From NCBI GenBank assembly GCA_009885845.1, contig VFJW01000046.1, forward strand, positions 1 to 36,109: DNA of 36,109 nt, read 5' to 3'. This document shows, piece after piece, positions 9,119 through 35,950 of this stretch (its first letter is position 1; each line of letters opens with the position of its first letter). The DNA is from Geobacter sp. (GTDB taxonomy: Bacteria; Desulfobacterota; Desulfuromonadia; Geobacterales; Pseudopelobacteraceae). Position numbers and translations under genes: made by a program. The notes beneath the pieces are model-generated. The model searched no databases. It was not told the DNA's origin and worked only from the letters and a program-made list of their open reading frames with translations.

Positions 9119-9188
9119 AACAGTTCTCCCTTCGTAGCTGTGAAAAATGCCCCTTGGTAGCTGCGGGCCAATTATCACGCGACATTTC

Positions 9189-9259
9189 GGCAACCCGGCT
9201 ATCTCTATGAGACCCAATAGGTTTTCCGCCCCATCCTCACGGATGGTTTAGTATTATCG
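9189..9259 (-). ncRNA. GEMM-I riboswitch aptamer, proximal copy
   Basis: Read on the minus strand it has ATACTAAACC, a short stem capped by a GNRA loop (GTGA), GGGGCGGAAAACC, a second stem with CTC-ATA-GAG, and the 3' block AGCCGGGTTGCC. These follow the GEMM-I layout in order. It lies about 70 bases ahead of the RCC1 gene start. Compared with the distal copy the core carries G for A before CGG and AACC for AGCC. No strong terminator follows, only a weak hairpin with a T-run near 9140-9170, so it may act on translation or a weak terminator. Confidence 0.85.
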
Positions 9260-9348
9260 TCTGCCACGAGGTTGCCTGGCTTATACCGCCATTCGATATA
9301 AGCATGTACTGCACCAGCCGGTTACAACTCCTTTCACAAAATACCCAC

Positions 9349-9400
9349 AAAAAAGCCGGGTCGCCTGAATATCGAACATTCGATATTTCGGCGACCCGGC
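9349..9400 (-). terminator. Riboswitch-controlled intrinsic terminator
   Basis: On the minus strand GCCGGGTCGCC (9400-9390) pairs perfectly over 11 bp with GGCGACCCGGC (9365-9355), with a further internal ATATCGAA/TTCGATAT stem, then six T at 9354-9349. The 5' arm is the 3' end of the distal aptamer, so aptamer folding and terminator formation compete for the same bases. Confidence 0.85.
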
Positions 9401-9460
9401 TATCTCTATGAGACCCAATGGGCTTTCCGTCCCACCCTCGCGGATGGTTTAGTATTATCG
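9389..9460 (-). ncRNA. GEMM-I riboswitch aptamer, distal copy
   Basis: Minus-strand order: ATACTAAACC, stem with GCGA (GNRA) tetraloop, GGGACGGAAAGCC, the CCC-ATT-GGG and CTC-ATA-GAG stems, then AGCCGGGTCGCC. It matches the GEMM-I consensus closely, including the A that stacks between the ligand bases. Aligned on AAACC to the well-known Vibrio Vc2 aptamer, the position of Vc2 G20 is A here. In Geobacter this is the mark of the 3',3'-cGAMP-responsive GEMM-Ib class. The promoter lies just upstream at 9504-9532. Confidence 0.88.
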
Positions 9461-9503
9461 TTATCTAGTTTAAAGTCAGATTCTCTTCTCTTTTAGTGTG
9501 GTA

Positions 9504-27738: not shown

Positions 27739-27776
27739 GGAATATCCCGCGGCCTTGTTGCGGGATATTCCGCTTT
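27739..27776 (+). terminator. Intrinsic terminator of glmS
   Basis: GGAATATCCCGC (27739-27750) pairs perfectly with GCGGGATATTCC (27760-27771) around a 9-base loop, followed by GCTTTT. Confidence 0.85.
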
Positions 27777-27877
27777 TAACGATTCAGCCTTCACAAGATC
27801 CGATGGCATGCTATAATAGGATCAGAAACGTCCTTTATTTGTTTTGTTCCTCCGCATTCAAAAGCGAGGTGGTCACA

Positions 27878-28483
27878 ATGAAAAACATGTCACGTTTTCT
27901 TATATTCACTTCTCTTCTCTTGATTTCCTTTCAACAAACTGCGGCAGCTGCCTCTGAAAAAGCGATTTTTGCCGGCGGGTGCTTCTGGTGCATGGAGGCT
28001 CCCTTTGATCAGCTTCCCGGGGTTGTTTCTGTCACCTCCGGGTATACCGGTGGAAACAAGAAGAACCCGACTTACCGGGAGGTTTCTGCAGGCGGGACCG
28101 GACACGCCGAAGCGGTTCAGATCGTCTACGACCCGTCAAAAATCAGCTATGACAAGCTTCTGACGGTCTTTTGGCATAATATTGACCCGACGGTTACGAA
28201 TCGCCAGTTCTGCGATACGGGAGATCAGTACCGGAGTGCCGTATTTTTTTCCTCAGAAGGGCAGCGTCGTGCCGCCCTTCAATCGAAGGCGGTTCTTGAA
28301 AAGAGCAAACCCTTCAAGGAGTCGATCGTAACCGAAATAACCCCTGCCGGTGAATTTTATCCGGCCGAGGAGTACCACCAGCAGTACTACCGGAAGAACC
28401 CGATCAGATATGCGTATTACCGTAACGGCTGCGGCCGCGACCAGCGACTTAAACAGTTGTGGGGCAGCACGGCAGGTCATTGA
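27878..28483 (+). CDS. msrA: Exported peptide methionine sulfoxide reductase A
   Basis: 201 residues from ATG 27878, with GAGGTGG upstream; the frame to 27755 overlaps the glmS terminator and is rejected. A signal peptide (hydrophobic FLIFTSLLLISF, then AAAA) precedes the MsrA domain. Catalytic Cys35 lies in AGGCFWCM. TSGYTGG, GTGHAEAV and QFCDTGDQYRS are family signatures. The enzyme repairs the S form of methionine sulfoxide, here probably in the periplasm. msrB follows 19 bases later, making a complete Met-SO repair pair. Confidence 0.93.
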   Translation: MKNMSRFLIFTSLLLISFQQTAAAASEKAIFAGGCFWCMEAPFDQLPGVVSVTSGYTGGNKKNPTYREVSAGGTGHAEAVQIVYDPSKISYDKLLTVFWHNIDPTVTNRQFCDTGDQYRSAVFFSSEGQRRAALQSKAVLEKSKPFKESIVTEITPAGEFYPAEEYHQQYYRKNPIRYAYYRNGCGRDQRLKQLWGSTAGH

Positions 28484-28502: not shown

Positions 28503-29063
28503 ATGATCTCACGAAGATTATTTATTATCGGTGGTTTGGGTACTATAATTCTGGCCTGTAACAGAAAGGGGTCAATCACGGCAGCAACAGCGACACCGGT
28601 TGCTGGCGGAGCGGCACGGACATCAACGGTGAGGCTGTATTCCGCAGCTTCGAAAGGATACATCATGAGCGACAAGGTCGTAAAAACCCCTGAGGAATGG
28701 CGCAAACAACTGACTCCCGAACAATATCACGTAGCCCGTGAGCAGGGAACGGAGAGGGCCTTCACCGGGGCTACGTGGAACAATCACGAGGTCGGCACAT
28801 ACCGGTGCGTCTGTTGCGGTAACGATCTGTACCGTTCGGAACACAAGTATGAATCCGGTACCGGATGGCCAAGTTTCTGGCAGCCGATTGCACCGGAAAA
28901 TATCACCACCCGTGCCGACAACAGCCTGTTCTCACGGCGGACAGAAGTCGTATGCACCCGTTGTGACGCCCATCTGGGTCATGTATTTGATGATGGGCCG
29001 AAGCCGACCGGTCTTCGCTACTGCATGAATTCGGCTGCTATGACATTTGTGAAGACGCCGTGA
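28503..29063 (+). CDS. msrB: Peptide methionine sulfoxide reductase B, membrane/lipoprotein-like
   Basis: 186 residues. The N-terminus has MISRRLF and a hydrophobic run ending IILAC, an imperfect lipobox suggesting a lipoprotein or membrane-anchored protein. The MsrB domain starts near [20 protein letters not shown]. Zinc is bound by RCVCCGNDL and [10 protein letters not shown]. The catalytic cysteine is in RYCMNSAAM. It reduces the R form of methionine sulfoxide and complements MsrA upstream. Its stop overlaps the next start (GTGA), so the genes are coupled. Confidence 0.92.
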
Positions 29064-30583
29064 CATCCCTGCTTCGTGTGCTGCCGGACACTCCTGAAAA
29101 CCGGGAGCTGACGGAAAATGTACATCCTGCTGCCTGGGTCAACCCAGATCCGGCTCCCTGCTACAATCTGGTGGTAATAGGTGGTGGTACTGCAGGTTTA
29201 ATCTGCGCCGCAGGTGCGGCAGGGTTGGGTGCAAAGGTTGCCCTTATTGAGCGTCACCTGCTGGGGGGCGACTGTCTGAATGTGGGGTGTGTGCCCTCAA
29301 AGGGGGTCATCAGTGCATCCCGCGCAGTCCACCATGCCCGTAACTCTGCTGAATCCGGAGTATTGGATGGCAAAAGTCTTGGCTTCGACTTCGGGACGGC
29401 CATGGAGCGTATGCGCCGCTTACGGGCTGATATCAGCTACCACGACTCAGCTCGCCGTTTCCGCGACGATCTGGGTGTCGATGTTTTTATCGGACAGGGG
29501 CGCTTCAGCGGTGCAGACACGGTTGAGGTTGCGGGCACAACACTGCGCTTCAAAAAAGCCGCGGTCTGCACGGGTGCCCGTGCCGCAGCACCGCCCATAC
29601 CCGGGTTGGAAGAGGCTGGGTATCTGACCAACGAGACGGTTTTCTCCCTTACTGGACTGCCACTCCGTCTGGCGGTGATCGGTGCCGGACCGATCGGCTG
29701 CGAACTGGCGCAATCCTTTGGCCGTTTTGGCAGCGCGGTAACCCTGATTGAACAGGGACCGCATATTCTTGGGCGTGAAGACTCCGATGCCGCTGAAGTT
29801 CTGCATGGTGCCTTTATCCGTGAAGGTATTGATCTACAGCTTGGAGCGAAAATCCTCGCCGTGGAAAAACGGGGAAACGAAAAAATTCTGCGCATGGAAC
29901 GGGATGGAACAACGCTCGAAGTCGTGGTGGACGAGATACTGGTCGGAGTTGGGCGCGCCCCGAACATCAACGGGCTTGGACTGGAGAAGGCAGGCATAAA
30001 GTTTGACCGTTCAGGCGTTCTGGTTAGTGACAATCTGCAGACTTCAAACCCGAATATTTATGCCGCAGGCGACATCTGTTCCCCTTTCAAGTTCACCCAC
30101 ACAGCTGATGCTCTGGCCCGTATTCTGATCGCCAATGCCCTCTTCATGGGAAGGCAGAAGGTTTCTGCTCTGATCATTCCCTGGTGTACCTATACTGATC
30201 CGGAGATCGCCCATGTTGGAATGTATGAAAGTGATGCAGCAGAAAAAGGAATTGAACTGACCACACTCACCGTCCCGCTGTCGGATATTGACCGGGCTGT
30301 CCTTGACGGCGAAACGGAAGGGTTTGCCAGGGTCCATCTGCGTAAGGGGAGTGACAAGATTCTCGGTGCCACGATTGTCGCCCGTCATGCAGGGGAGATG
30401 ATAAGCGAGTTTTCGCTTGCCATTACTAATGGTCTCGGCATTTCAGCCATCGGCAAGACGATTCACCCCTATCCAACTCAGGCCGAGGTCATCAAACGTC
30501 TGGCTGATGTCTACAACCGTACGCGGCTGACGCCGTTTGTGAAGCGACTGCTGAATGGATGGTTGAAATGGCAGAGGTGCTAA
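29060..30583 (+). CDS. MerA-like FAD/NAD(P)-disulfide oxidoreductase
   Basis: 507 residues, GTG start overlapping msrB by 4 bases. After about 35 extra N-terminal residues comes the FAD motif [13 protein letters not shown], the redox-active pair [14 protein letters not shown], an NAD(P) Rossmann motif ([17 protein letters not shown]), IYAAGDI, and the dimer-interface end [12 protein letters not shown]. There is no heavy-metal HMA domain and no C-terminal vicinal cysteine pair of true MerA, so it is a mercuric-reductase relative and not a proven mercury enzyme. It is co-transcribed with msrA and msrB, which suggests a role in thiol redox supply (inference). Confidence 0.88.
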
Positions 30584-30774: not shown

Positions 30775-31467
30775 GTGAAGCCACAGAAAATCATTATATT
30801 TGGAACTGCTGCCGCCTTAATTGCCCTGTTTTTTTTCTTCGATCTGCAACACTTTCTGACGCTTGCAGCGCTCAAGGCAAACCGCCAGACGTTGCTCGAT
30901 TACTCCGCAGCACACAAGTTGATCATGATAGCCGGTTTTATGGCCATATACATTATCCAGACCGCATTGTCGCTTCCGGGTGCCGCTATCCTCTCGCTGG
31001 CAGCGGGTGCCATATTCGGTTCAATAATGGGTACGCTCTACGCCAATATTGCCGCCACGATCGGCGCGACACTAGCTTTTCTGGTGACCCGTTATCTGCT
31101 GCGTGATGTCGTGTTAAACAGGTTCGGGGGCAAGCTGGAAGGGATGAACCGGGAGTTGGAGGAGCGAGGTTTCAGTTACCTCCTGTTTCTCCGTTTGGTG
31201 CCGCTTTTCCCGTTTTTCCTCATCAATCTGGCTGCCGGCCTGACCCGCCTGCCGCTGAGGACGTTCTTCTTCGGCACCATGCTCGGTATTATTCCGGGGG
31301 GCTTTGTCTTCGTCAACGCCGGCGCAAGCCTGGCAACCATTGATTCACTCTCCGGCATAGCCTCGCCCCGTGTACTCGGCTCGTTTGCGCTGCTGGGACT
31401 TTTTGCGCTGATTCCGGTGCTGTACAACAAGTTGAAAAAGAGGAAGGAAACCGAGGTGCAACTGTGA
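30775..31467 (+). CDS. TVP38/TMEM64 (DedA-like) membrane protein
   Basis: 230 residues, GTG start with AAGGA upstream. Several membrane segments; the family core is GAIFGSIMGTLYANIAATIGATLAFLVTRY-like (positions about 75-105), then YLLFLRLVPLFPFFLINLAAG, the conserved F-x-x-x-x-R-x-x-P-x-x-P motif. SNARE-associated/DedA proteins act in lipid scrambling or solute export. This subfamily often neighbours MerA-like and ArsS-like genes (general knowledge). The stop overlaps the selenoprotein start (GTGA). Confidence 0.87.
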   Translation: MKPQKIIIFGTAAALIALFFFFDLQHFLTLAALKANRQTLLDYSAAHKLIMIAGFMAIYIIQTALSLPGAAILSLAAGAIFGSIMGTLYANIAATIGATLAFLVTRYLLRDVVLNRFGGKLEGMNRELEERGFSYLLFLRLVPLFPFFLINLAAGLTRLPLRTFFFGTMLGIIPGGFVFVNAGASLATIDSLSGIASPRVLGSFALLGLFALIPVLYNKLKKRKETEVQL

Positions 31468-32000
31468 GTAACTTGACAGGTAAACCTGCGGTGCATTTTG
31501 CCATTCATGACAGTAATGGCGACCTGCATACTCAGGAAGAGTACAAGGGAAGTTGGCTTTTATTGGTCTTTCACCGGCATCTTGGCTGACTCCCCTGCCG
31601 CGCGCACATCACGCAGTTGCGTGATACGGAAGATAAACTCAAAAGGCTGAATGTAAAAGTGGTTGTTGTTACCTTTGAAAACGACTTTCTTGCCCGTTGT
31701 TATGTTGAAGATACGGCACTTACGTGGCCGATTCTTATTGATACTGCTCGAGAAGTTTACAAAGGTTATGGAATGCTCGCCGCATCTTTCTGGGATGTCT
31801 GGGGTTACAAGACATGGTGGGTTTATTTCAAGGAGCTGTTGAAAGGGAATAAACCAAAGAAGTCAGATGGGGATGTGTACCAGCGAGGTGGCGATGTGCT
31901 TATCGATCCGAATGGGGTTGTACGGTTACATCACATCGGTGAAGGTCCGGCTGATCGGCCATCTGTCGAGCATATTTTAAAGGTGATAAACGCAGGTTGA
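31464..32000 (+). CDS. Selenocysteine-containing peroxiredoxin-like protein (PRXL2/AAED1-type), TGA read as Sec
   Basis: GTG at 31464 overlaps the TVP38 stop and has GAGGTG before it. The frame stays open to 32000 except for one TGA at 31587-31589. Around it the protein reads VFHRHLG-U-LPCRAHITQLR, so the TGA sits at the first position of a UxxC redox motif where peroxiredoxin-like AhpC/TSA2 relatives have Cys (CxxC). A hairpin 31608-31625 follows. Reading through gives 178 residues with typical family features after it (VVVVTFENDFLARCYVED, WPILIDTAREVYKGYGM, DVLIDPNGVVRLHHIGEGP). Calling the gene from the ATG/TTG downstream (31617) loses the active site. A rarer alternative is a nonsense mutation. 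Confidence 0.85.
31587..31625 (+). promoter_or_regulatory. Selenocysteine UGA and bacterial SECIS-like hairpin
   Basis: UGA at 31587-31589. A hairpin ATCACGC (31608-31614), loop AGTT, GCGTGAT (31619-31625) begins 18 bases past it. The stem is 7 bp with a 4-base loop, the loop lies about 25 bases from the UGA, and a G is among its first two bases. These fit the bacterial SECIS rules (loop 16-37 bases downstream, G in the first two loop positions). Confidence 0.75.
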
Positions 32001-32036: not shown

Positions 32037-32894
32037 ATGTCAAATGGTGTGTCCTTTGCCCTGTTGAGCATGATCTTCGCCGGCATCTATGATGTCGTGT
32101 GCAAGAAATATTCTGCCAAGGAAAGATCTCGGGGCATGTACGTTCTTGGGATTGGACTGACCTGGGCTGTGATGCAGCTGTTCTGGATGCGGCTGAATGA
32201 TATCCCGTTTCATGCAGAGACCGCAACCATCAGTTACGGTCTAATTGCCGGAGTACTTCTGACGCTCTCTAATCTGTTACTTATTGAGGGGCTGACGCAT
32301 ATCAATGTCAGTCTCGGTTCAACAGTCTATCGTTTGAACACTATTGGTGTCGTACTCCTGTCATATCTGGTTCTGCACGAGTCCGTCGGCAAAATAAAAC
32401 TCGCCGGAATCATTTTCGGAATCATTGCTGTTCTGCTGATGTACGGTGCTGGCAAGACAGCAAATACACATGGAAAATCCGCGCTCTTTTTCTGGATAGT
32501 TGTTTGCGCCTCCCTCTGCAGGGCGCTCTATGGCATCGTTTCAAAAGCCGGCCTGTCCGCACAAGCTGACGCTCAGTCGATGCTTCTGATTGTCGCATTA
32601 TGCTGGGTAATCGGTGGGGCTTTTTATGCTAAATTTATCGAAAAGAGATTCATCGTTACACAGAAAAAAATCGCCTACTCAGTTCTGTCCGGTTTTCTGG
32701 TGTTCTGCATCGTAAATTTTCTGATCCAGGGGCTGAAAACAGGACTGGCAAGTGTTGTCATACCGATTGCAAACATGAGCTTTCTCGTTGCTCTGCTGGT
32801 TTCCGCAGTGTTGAAAATAGAAAGACTGACGGCAAGAAACACAGTTGCTGCAGCTCTTGCGTTGGTGTCAATACTGTTGCTGTTCAATGCCTGA
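32037..32894 (+). CDS. DMT (EamA-type) transporter
   Basis: 285 residues with ten hydrophobic segments in two EamA-like halves, e.g. GLIAGVLLTLSNLLLIEGLTHIN, VGKIKLAGIIFGIIAVLLMYGAG and RNTVAAALALVSILLLFNA. The first half ends with the typical glycine-rich repeat. Drug/metabolite transporters move small organics across the inner membrane; substrate unknown. It follows the selenoprotein by 36 bases and precedes arsS by about 50, so it probably belongs to the same unit. Confidence 0.88.
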   Translation: MSNGVSFALLSMIFAGIYDVVCKKYSAKERSRGMYVLGIGLTWAVMQLFWMRLNDIPFHAETATISYGLIAGVLLTLSNLLLIEGLTHINVSLGSTVYRLNTIGVVLLSYLVLHESVGKIKLAGIIFGIIAVLLMYGAGKTANTHGKSALFFWIVVCASLCRALYGIVSKAGLSAQADAQSMLLIVALCWVIGGAFYAKFIEKRFIVTQKKIAYSVLSGFLVFCIVNFLIQGLKTGLASVVIPIANMSFLVALLVSAVLKIERLTARNTVAAALALVSILLLFNA

Positions 32895-32945: not shown

Positions 32946-33905
32946 ATGGTACCATCATTCAAAGAACGTCTGCAGACGGTAAATTCGGAGTACGAAACAT
33001 TTGAAAACCTGCAGACCCTGCAGGTCAACCTTGGCAACCTCTGCAACTTGCAGTGTAACCACTGTCATGTCGATGCCTCAAGTCGTGGTACGGAAATAAT
33101 GGGAATAGACGTCATGGATCAGATTGCCGGATTTCTCCGGTGTCATCCCGCTCTTACCCTGGATATAACCGGCGGTTGTCCGGAGATGAATCCCAACTTC
33201 CGTTATCTGGTTGAAGAGACGGAAGGGTTGGCCGCACGCCGAATGCTGCGCAGCAATCTTGCAATTATGGCTGAGCATGGATGGGAGTGGCTTCCCGAGT
33301 TTTGCTGTAACCAGGAGCTGATCATCGTAGGTTCGCTCCCCTGTTATCTTGAGGAGAACGTTGACGGGCAGCGGGGTAACGGAGTGTACAAAGAGAGCAT
33401 TCAGGTGTTGAAGAGGCTGAATTCCATTGGGTATGGAAAAGAACTGGAGCTCGATCTGGTGTACAATCCGGGGGGTGATTTTATCCCCGGCAGTCAGCAG
33501 GGTTTGGAAACAACGTACAAGGCAGAGCTGTCAGCGAGGCACGGGATAGTATTCAATCATCTCTTCACCATAACGAACGCGCCGATCGGGCGTTTCCGGG
33601 AACATCTCGAAACCACCGGCACGTATGCTGATTATCTGCACATGCTGGCAGGGCGTTTCAATCCCGAGGCTGCGGGCAATATCATGTGCCGAACTCTGAT
33701 TAGTGTCGATTGGCAGGGGAAGATTTATAATTGCGATTTCAATCAGGCGCTTGGAATGGCTGTTATAGCGGAAGATGGTTCTGAAATAACGATTTCCGAA
33801 CTGGATAATGCGGGAATGAGCGGAAAACAAATTGACCTTGCACAGCACTGCTATTGCTGCACAGCAGGCGAAGGGTCAAGTTGCACCGGCGCTCTGGCCC
33901 CCTGA
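32946..33905 (+). CDS. arsS: ArsS-like radical SAM/Cys-rich protein
   Basis: 319 residues. The cluster motif is LCNLQCNHC (Cys33, Cys37, Cys40), followed by LDITGGCPEMNPNFRYL and an unusual Cys-rich C-terminus ending HCYCCTAGEGSSCTGALAP. This is the pattern of the radical SAM/Cys-rich (rSAM_SeCys, DUF3641) family, now called ArsS because of its role in arsenosugar formation. Some members have selenocysteine in the C-terminal block; here the codon in GSSC is TGC, so Cys. The mid part has a further Cys (CRTLISVDWQGKIYNCDFNQ). It probably acts with the downstream glycosyltransferase. Confidence 0.88.
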   Translation: MVPSFKERLQTVNSEYETFENLQTLQVNLGNLCNLQCNHCHVDASSRGTEIMGIDVMDQIAGFLRCHPALTLDITGGCPEMNPNFRYLVEETEGLAARRMLRSNLAIMAEHGWEWLPEFCCNQELIIVGSLPCYLEENVDGQRGNGVYKESIQVLKRLNSIGYGKELELDLVYNPGGDFIPGSQQGLETTYKAELSARHGIVFNHLFTITNAPIGRFREHLETTGTYADYLHMLAGRFNPEAAGNIMCRTLISVDWQGKIYNCDFNQALGMAVIAEDGSEITISELDNAGMSGKQIDLAQHCYCCTAGEGSSCTGALAP

Positions 33906-34888: not shown

Positions 34889-35950
34889 ATGCCCGGCACA
34901 CTTCAGGTTACGCTTTCGGTAATTATCCCGACTCTCAATGAAGCTGAGCATCTGCCGATGCTTTTGGCTGATCTGGCACGACAGCAGAATATCTCCCTCG
35001 AAATTATAATTGGTGATGGAGGTTCCAGCGACGCGACCGGTGCAGTGGCTGCGAAGTTCAGTGCACTCTTCGTAATAGCACCGCGCGGCAGGGGAGCGCA
35101 GATGAACGCCGCAGCGGCGGTGGCTTCGGGAAAATACCTGCTGTTTCTCCATGCCGACTCTACGCTTGACGATCCCCTTCTTCTCAGCAATGCGGTTTAT
35201 GCCATTATGGCAGAACCGGAGGAAGAATGCCGCCGCGCCGGGCATTTCCCACTGCGTTTCACCCGTATTTCGGCCCGGAATGCGCTGGCGTATCGCTACG
35301 CCGAGGAAAAGACAGCCTTCAACAGGATTAATACCACTAACGGCGACCAGGGGTTGCTGCTGAGGGCTGTTTTTTTTCACAGCCTCGGCGGATTTGATGA
35401 GCGCTTACCTTTTCTGGAGGATCAGCGGATTGCCGAGAAAATCCGGGCCGAGGGGGAGTGGATTACCCTGCCGGGGCATCTTGAAACATCAGCCCGCCGC
35501 TTTGAAAAGGAAGGTTTCCACCGTCGCTACATACTAATGAGTATGATGATGGGGCTGCACTCTGCCGGAGTTGATGAGTTTCTTGCCTGCGCACCGGGGG
35601 TATACCGGACCCAGCAGGATACCGGTAGGTTGCTCTTGTCGCCGTTTTTTGCCCTTATCCGGCAGATGATGCGGGAAAAGTGGCGGGTAGGCGGGACGAT
35701 TCGGGTTTTCTATCTTTTAGGGCGGTATATCCGTCAGAATTCATGGCAGATGTTTTATTTTTTTGATATCTGGTCCCGGCCGCTGCTGGGAGCGGGGCGA
35801 TATCCTTTTCTCCGGTTCCATGACCGGGTGTTTGCCCCCTGTACGGACTTCAGGTTCTTCGATGCTCTGGCTGGATTGCTCTGTTTTGTCTGGTTTATGG
35901 GGGTACTGGCGCCGTATTTCCAGTTTGTGGAGAGTAAAAAGCAAAGCTGA
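34889..35950 (+). CDS. Family 2 glycosyltransferase, rSAM/selenodomain-associated type, with C-terminal extension
   Basis: 353 residues. The N-terminal 230 match the TIGR04283-like glycosyltransferase: LSVIIPTLNEAEHLPMLLADL, IGDGGSSD, GRGAQMNAAAAVASGKYLLFLHADS, GDQGLLLRAVFF, FLEDQRIAEKIR. These enzymes accompany ArsS-type radical SAM genes. The usual length is about 230 residues; here another 120 or so follow, including repeated Arg/aromatic segments and a final membrane-like helix (FDALAGLLCFVWFMGVLAPYF), which may anchor it. It starts 6 bases after the DUF3047 stop, at the end of the run. Confidence 0.87.
   Translation: MPGTLQVTLSVIIPTLNEAEHLPMLLADLARQQNISLEIIIGDGGSSDATGAVAAKFSALFVIAPRGRGAQMNAAAAVASGKYLLFLHADSTLDDPLLLSNAVYAIMAEPEEECRRAGHFPLRFTRISARNALAYRYAEEKTAFNRINTTNGDQGLLLRAVFFHSLGGFDERLPFLEDQRIAEKIRAEGEWITLPGHLETSARRFEKEGFHRRYILMSMMMGLHSAGVDEFLACAPGVYRTQQDTGRLLLSPFFALIRQMMREKWRVGGTIRVFYLLGRYIRQNSWQMFYFFDIWSRPLLGAGRYPFLRFHDRVFAPCTDFRFFDALAGLLCFVWFMGVLAPYFQFVESKKQS

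Follow-up and report, generated by a model that had tools for sequence, protein, structure and literature searches.

Typical peroxiredoxins have the active site PxxxT/SxxC, and SelL has selenocysteine (Sec, U) at the first position of its motif, UxxU. A family named Prx-like thiol:disulfide oxidoreductase has been reported in Geobacter species (PMC1794560), and SelL has been named a Prx-like protein (PMC2398784). The motif given for Sec-containing peroxiredoxins is PxxxTxxU (PMC13188914). Here we describe a gene of this kind in a stretch of 36,109 nucleotides, called the window below, that covers positions 1-36,109 of contig VFJW01000046.1 of the soil bacterium Geobacter sp. (GCA_009885845.1; 3.27 Mb in 179 contigs, 99% complete). 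From comparative sequence evidence, positions 31464-31997 of the forward strand almost certainly encode a selenoprotein of 178 residues with a thioredoxin fold, which belongs to the SelL-related family (NF040769) and has its Sec specified by the UGA at 31587.

Results

The frame 31464-31997 (+) starts with GTG, with GAGG located 7 bases 5' of it, and its true stop is the TGA at 31998-32000. The start shares the four bases GTGA (31464-31467, +) with the end of the upstream VTT-domain gene, whose stop is at 31465-31467. The only interruption is the in-frame TGA at 31587-31589 (+), in the motif FHRHLG-U-LPC. Read as Sec, it would be residue 42 and the first residue of ULPC, and its UxxC partner Cys45 is encoded at 31596-31598 (+). 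A first-pass annotation, made by a model from the letters alone, had described this single broken frame and the 4-base overlap, and both were confirmed.

The read-through protein scores 194 bits with NF040769, the NCBIfam model 'SelL-related redox protein' (curated cut-off 120, residues 8-174), and 62.1 bits with the Pfam domain PF00578 (residues 6-154). The latter outscores PF13911 (AhpC-TSA_2, PRXL2/AAED1-type; 43.9 bits, cut-off 27), which matches residues 51-160 only, all after the TGA. NF040769 is the best curated family for the predicted protein. One AhpC/TSA2 (PRXL2/AAED1)-like domain had been proposed for both sides of the TGA. That the two halves share one family holds true, as both lie inside PF00578 and NF040769, but the PRXL2/AAED1-type model itself covers the 3' part alone. 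Since its match is wholly 3' of the TGA, PF13911 is uninformative on the joining of the two halves.

Database gene calls could suggest that there are two genes, i.e. a peptide of 41 residues that stops at the TGA and, with a start of its own, a protein of 113-127 residues. The window's own entry (P0003) has 113 residues, begins MVVVTF and starts at 31659, and 127 residues is the commonest length among relatives (39 of the best 120 of 609). Possible start codons lie at 31617 and 31659, and the 3' open reading frame (ORF) alone satisfies PF13911. However, PF00578 (cut-off 26) is satisfied by the joined protein only, the 3' ORF alone reaching 25.8 bits, the split would fall inside the UxxC motif, and the Cys forms P0031 and P0125 are single uninterrupted proteins. 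Two genes are thus very unlikely. The first-pass annotation had expected gene callers to report only the 3' part, which they did, although from 31659 and not as the 127-residue ORF from 31617. Among the best 120 of the 609 relatives, 115 miss the part before the TGA and the motif, their alignments covering no more than 75% of the query; some of them may be cut by contig ends.

In comparisons of the window with five relatives (L009-L012, L029), the ratio of nonsynonymous to synonymous change (pN/pS) was 0.17-0.20 before the TGA (39 codons) and 0.09-0.19 after it. The low value 5' of the TGA indicates that the upstream part is constrained coding sequence, in line with the selection proposed for this frame at the outset. 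In the order, 141 genomes were searched and 89 gave a match. The 16 strong matches (236-414 bits, the window's own included) each contain exactly one in-frame TGA, never replaced by TAA or TAG; the weaker ones (up to 29.7 bits, among the matches listed) are other family members. TGA was also present at the column in 11 of 11 loci from named GTDB genomes, which partly overlap the genomes of the order search and are metagenome-assembled genomes labelled Desulfuromonadales, Geobacteraceae, Deltaproteobacteria, Oryzomonas and the like. Could the TGA be a nonsense mutation or a miscall in a decaying gene? A single stop in an otherwise intact frame and the 3' part standing alone in those 115 database relatives would fit a pseudogene or sequencing error. 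The exclusive use of TGA in all 16 strong matches of the order, the low pN/pS on both sides and the conserved hairpin described below leave this explanation with hardly any probability.

Of the 395 genomes searched in the phylum, 200 gave some match and nine exceeded the NF040769 cut-off, own genome included; eight of these nine have one TGA and G225 has none. Of 30 fetched phylum loci (window included), read by eye at the corresponding column, 21 have Sec (TGA) and nine have Cys. The Sec loci comprise ULPC (8), UPFC/UPYC (6), U without a second Cys (6) and ULFC (1). Natural Cys forms in the protein database are P0031, P0038, P0123, P0125, P0126 and P0127. The homologues therefore carry Sec or Cys at this column, apart from five metagenomic database entries with Trp (P0002, P0004, P0094, P0124, P0128). 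Reading of the UGA by a residue other than Sec, e.g. Trp via near-cognate suppression, could be argued from these five entries, but they stem from contigs of 1.2-2.1 kb where a caller set to genetic code 4 would translate TGA as W, so that their Trp is probably an artefact, and with selA, selB and selC present, the hairpin conserved and Cys as the natural alternative residue, it is improbable in the extreme.

Several of these loci present variants. In L074, L075, L077, L078, L079 and L086 the TGA lies in FLRHFG-U-[MIV]F[AS] and a second Cys is missing; these Sec-only forms score below the NF040769 cut-off. Six loci, L088-L093, have open frames of 109-158 residues with the TGA in RGF-x-UPFC/UPYC and apparently represent another branch of predicted UxxC selenoproteins. 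The CPFC protein encoded by L094 has a distinct in-frame TGA, close to the N-terminus (APUIEL).

A candidate selenocysteine insertion sequence (SECIS) follows the UGA at 31608-31625 (+). It is a hairpin with an AGUU loop and a perfect 7-bp stem (31608-31614 paired with 31619-31625; -9.8 kcal/mol), 25 nt separating the UGA from the apical loop. The bacterial SECIS (bSECIS) rules given in PMC13188914 are a loop of 3-9 nt, a stem of 4-16 bp, a G in loop positions 1-2, 16-37 nt from the UGA and a minimum free energy of at most -7.5. The hairpin agrees with all of these (loop 4, stem 7, G second, 25 nt, -9.8 kcal/mol), and the SECIS-like element proposed from the raw letters was thus recovered at its exact position. 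Of the window's 1470 TGA trinucleotides, 24 are followed by a stem this long in SECIS-like position, and random synonymous recoding produced one in 74 of 5000 cases. Conservation was studied in 26 distinct TGA sequences, after removal of the phylum loci L067, L068 and L070, which duplicate the window, L015 and L036. Synonymous conservation at codons +7 to +11 ranks first of 90 five-codon windows (0.91), the mean outside codons +6 to +12 being 0.44. At codons +8, +9 and +10 the synonymous choice is identical wherever the amino acid is the same, and all 26 sequences have TTG for Leu +10, a codon used for 36 of 343 Leu in ten ORFs of the window. Of 182 pair cells, 96.7% are paired; at pair 25-36 of the alignment, L017, L019 and L040 have G-C. 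Two-sided changes occur in nine cells (A-U to G-C, U-G or C-G), a number reached by none of 500 shuffles, and covariation is 0.172 versus 0.000-0.090 for slid versions; kinship among the sequences inflates these shuffle tests. It is conservation, not folding energy, that lifts the predicted hairpin above chance.

Contig C7 of the same genome encodes the tRNA-Sec (selC; 70.9 bits, cut-off 47), SelA (609) and SelB (376), together with a molybdopterin, formate dehydrogenase-type gene with one TGA in its matched part, in RI-U-HSAT. None of the other five molybdopterin genes above the cut-off has a TGA.

Discussion

Insertion of Sec at UGA 31587 is strongly supported. We infer it because the anatomy of the locus is conserved and machinery genes are present. 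A number of observations weigh against it. Rfam matched no SECIS family at the locus, giving one chance snoRNA match. The folding energy is modest, with z-scores of -1.31, -1.07, -0.47 and +1.15 for four stretches, for which 24, 25, 59 and 179 of 200 shuffles, respectively, folded as well; by energy, 687 of 5000 synonymous recodings equalled the hairpin. Only two pairs show a two-sided change, a count reached by 170 of 500 shuffles, and 6 of 26 sequences fail to form the outermost stem pair (columns 22-39). The SECIS statistics rest on sets of 21 and 26 sequences that were motif-picked and consist of TGA forms only. PF13911 gives the 3' ORF alone 43.4 bits versus 43.9 for the whole protein, and the query P0001 contained a surplus C that derives from the true stop codon. 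Lastly, selD was not found in the assembly, and genome G081 (96% complete) bears the TGA gene with no selA, selB or selD over the cut-off.

The machinery sought in the genome is present as to selA, selB and selC, selD being the missing part. Weak selD matches were rejected, since ThiL (321 bits) and HypE (425 bits) account for them. In relatives L096 and L097, selD is located immediately upstream of yedF, and contig C55 of the window's genome ends inside yedF, at about residue 30. Because the contig stops within the gene next to which these relatives carry selD, its absence looks like an assembly gap at the C55 end. SelD is above the cut-off in 36 of 39 genus genomes. The case of G081, to which loci L009/L026 and L098 belong, could be explained by a mis-binned contig, gaps or a recent loss of the Sec trait. 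In G085, the SelD match has one in-frame TAG.

In the proposed mechanism, SelB with Sec-tRNA(Sec) would bind the hairpin and insert Sec at the UGA. The only conserved Cys/Sec residues are Sec42 and Cys45; Cys79, the sole other Cys, is not conserved. Sec42 aligns with the Thr of TxxC in a Bcp peroxiredoxin and the first Cys of the ResA CxxC, and Cys45 with the Bcp peroxidatic position (Ser in that chain) and the second Cys of ResA. Sec42 and Cys45 would form a UxxC pair in which Sec42 may attack a disulfide, selenenylsulfide or peroxide as the oxidised substrate, Cys45 may resolve it as a selenenylsulfide, and a thioredoxin-type reductant may reset the pair. The chemistry is likely an exchange of the CxxC type, in which Sec is the nucleophile and a selenenylsulfide forms as intermediate. 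Sec is off the peroxidatic position and sits at the Thr of TxxC, the arrangement of CxxC oxidoreductases, so that peroxidase activity does not follow, though it is possible for the predicted selenoprotein. 'Thiol-disulfide oxidoreductase-like' would be a safer label than 'peroxidase'. Of the original designation, a UxxC peroxiredoxin-like protein, the UxxC and the AhpC/TSA fold stand, while Sec does not occupy the peroxidatic position.

The gene is found among others, of which those given here with positions are on the same strand. Upstream are MsrA (methionine-S-sulfoxide reductase; 27755-28483, a TTG-start ORF as listed, the true start of which may be further in), MsrB (28503-29063), a flavin adenine dinucleotide (FAD)-containing disulfide oxidoreductase that is MerA/lipoamide dehydrogenase-like (29060-30583; NF004991) and the VTT-domain membrane protein (30775-31467). 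Downstream follow an EamA-type transporter (32037-32894), the radical SAM protein ArsS (32946-33905; TIGR04167, no in-frame stop), DUF167, DUF3047 and an arsenosugar-type glycosyltransferase (34889-35950; TIGR04283). Among 26 other loci (25 distinct), VTT adjoins in five (L009-L012, L029) and ArsS follows in four, all of the same genus (L009-L011, L029); flanks of about 0.2 kb to 6 kb per locus were compared, and short ones can miss VTT or ArsS. It is conceivable, if rather doubtful, that the ULPC branch of NF040769 forms its own selenoprotein subfamily, mostly hidden by truncated gene calls, and that this genus has drawn it into an arsenosugar-type cluster, alongside ArsS, the TIGR04283 glycosyltransferase, MsrA/MsrB and the FAD disulfide reductase, where its dedicated task would be the reduction of an organoarsenic or oxidised-thiol intermediate. 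A literature search linking arsenosugar, ArsS and selenoprotein found no paper. Elsewhere in the window there are two tandem cyclic di-GMP-I riboswitches (9186-9262 and 9387-9463, - strand), beyond which Rfam at gathering scores gave nothing over the whole window.

That a redox selenoprotein is mostly stored in databases as fragments without its catalytic residue is the most useful aspect of this finding. Selenoproteome counts for Desulfuromonadales-type bacteria would shift if these genes were called correctly, and a Trp at the Sec position may serve as a cheap flag for hidden selenoproteins. A SECIS conserved over 26 sequences also lends itself well to testing SelB recognition; bacterial SECIS elements can differ in specificity from species to species. 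If Sec insertion is true, as supported here, the UGA, the UxxC and the hairpin were read correctly from raw sequence. Literature searches found no paper on selenoproteins misannotated at UGA by the annotation pipeline PGAP, or on the names SelL-related, SelL_rel_redox or NF040769; further ones led to the surveys and reviews cited here and to no others. No match to P0001 was obtained in a plasmid collection.

How does the protein compare with known systems? SelL has UxxU, whereas the protein here has UxxC with a single Sec. The typical peroxiredoxin motif PxxxT/SxxC is not found in FHRHLGULPC. In Sec-containing peroxiredoxins (TxxU) and in AhpE/Bcp, the Thr of TxxC and the peroxidatic position align with Sec42 and Cys45, respectively, and the Pro of PxxxT is replaced here by Arg. 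With the Prx-like thiol:disulfide oxidoreductase of PMC13188914 Table 1 (PF00578, UxxC/UxxU; representative WP_010940744.1) the Pfam domain and UxxC are in common. NF040769 is absent from the domain identifiers in that 2026 table of 119 selenoprotein families, the UxxC rows of which for PF00578 or PF08534 may cover the family, so that we do not claim its absence from print. With the SelL-related redox proteins of NF040769 the UxxC/CxxC column is in common, and no difference was seen among the features compared. The selenoprotein type at 31464-31997 is already known, and the gene is a further member of that type.
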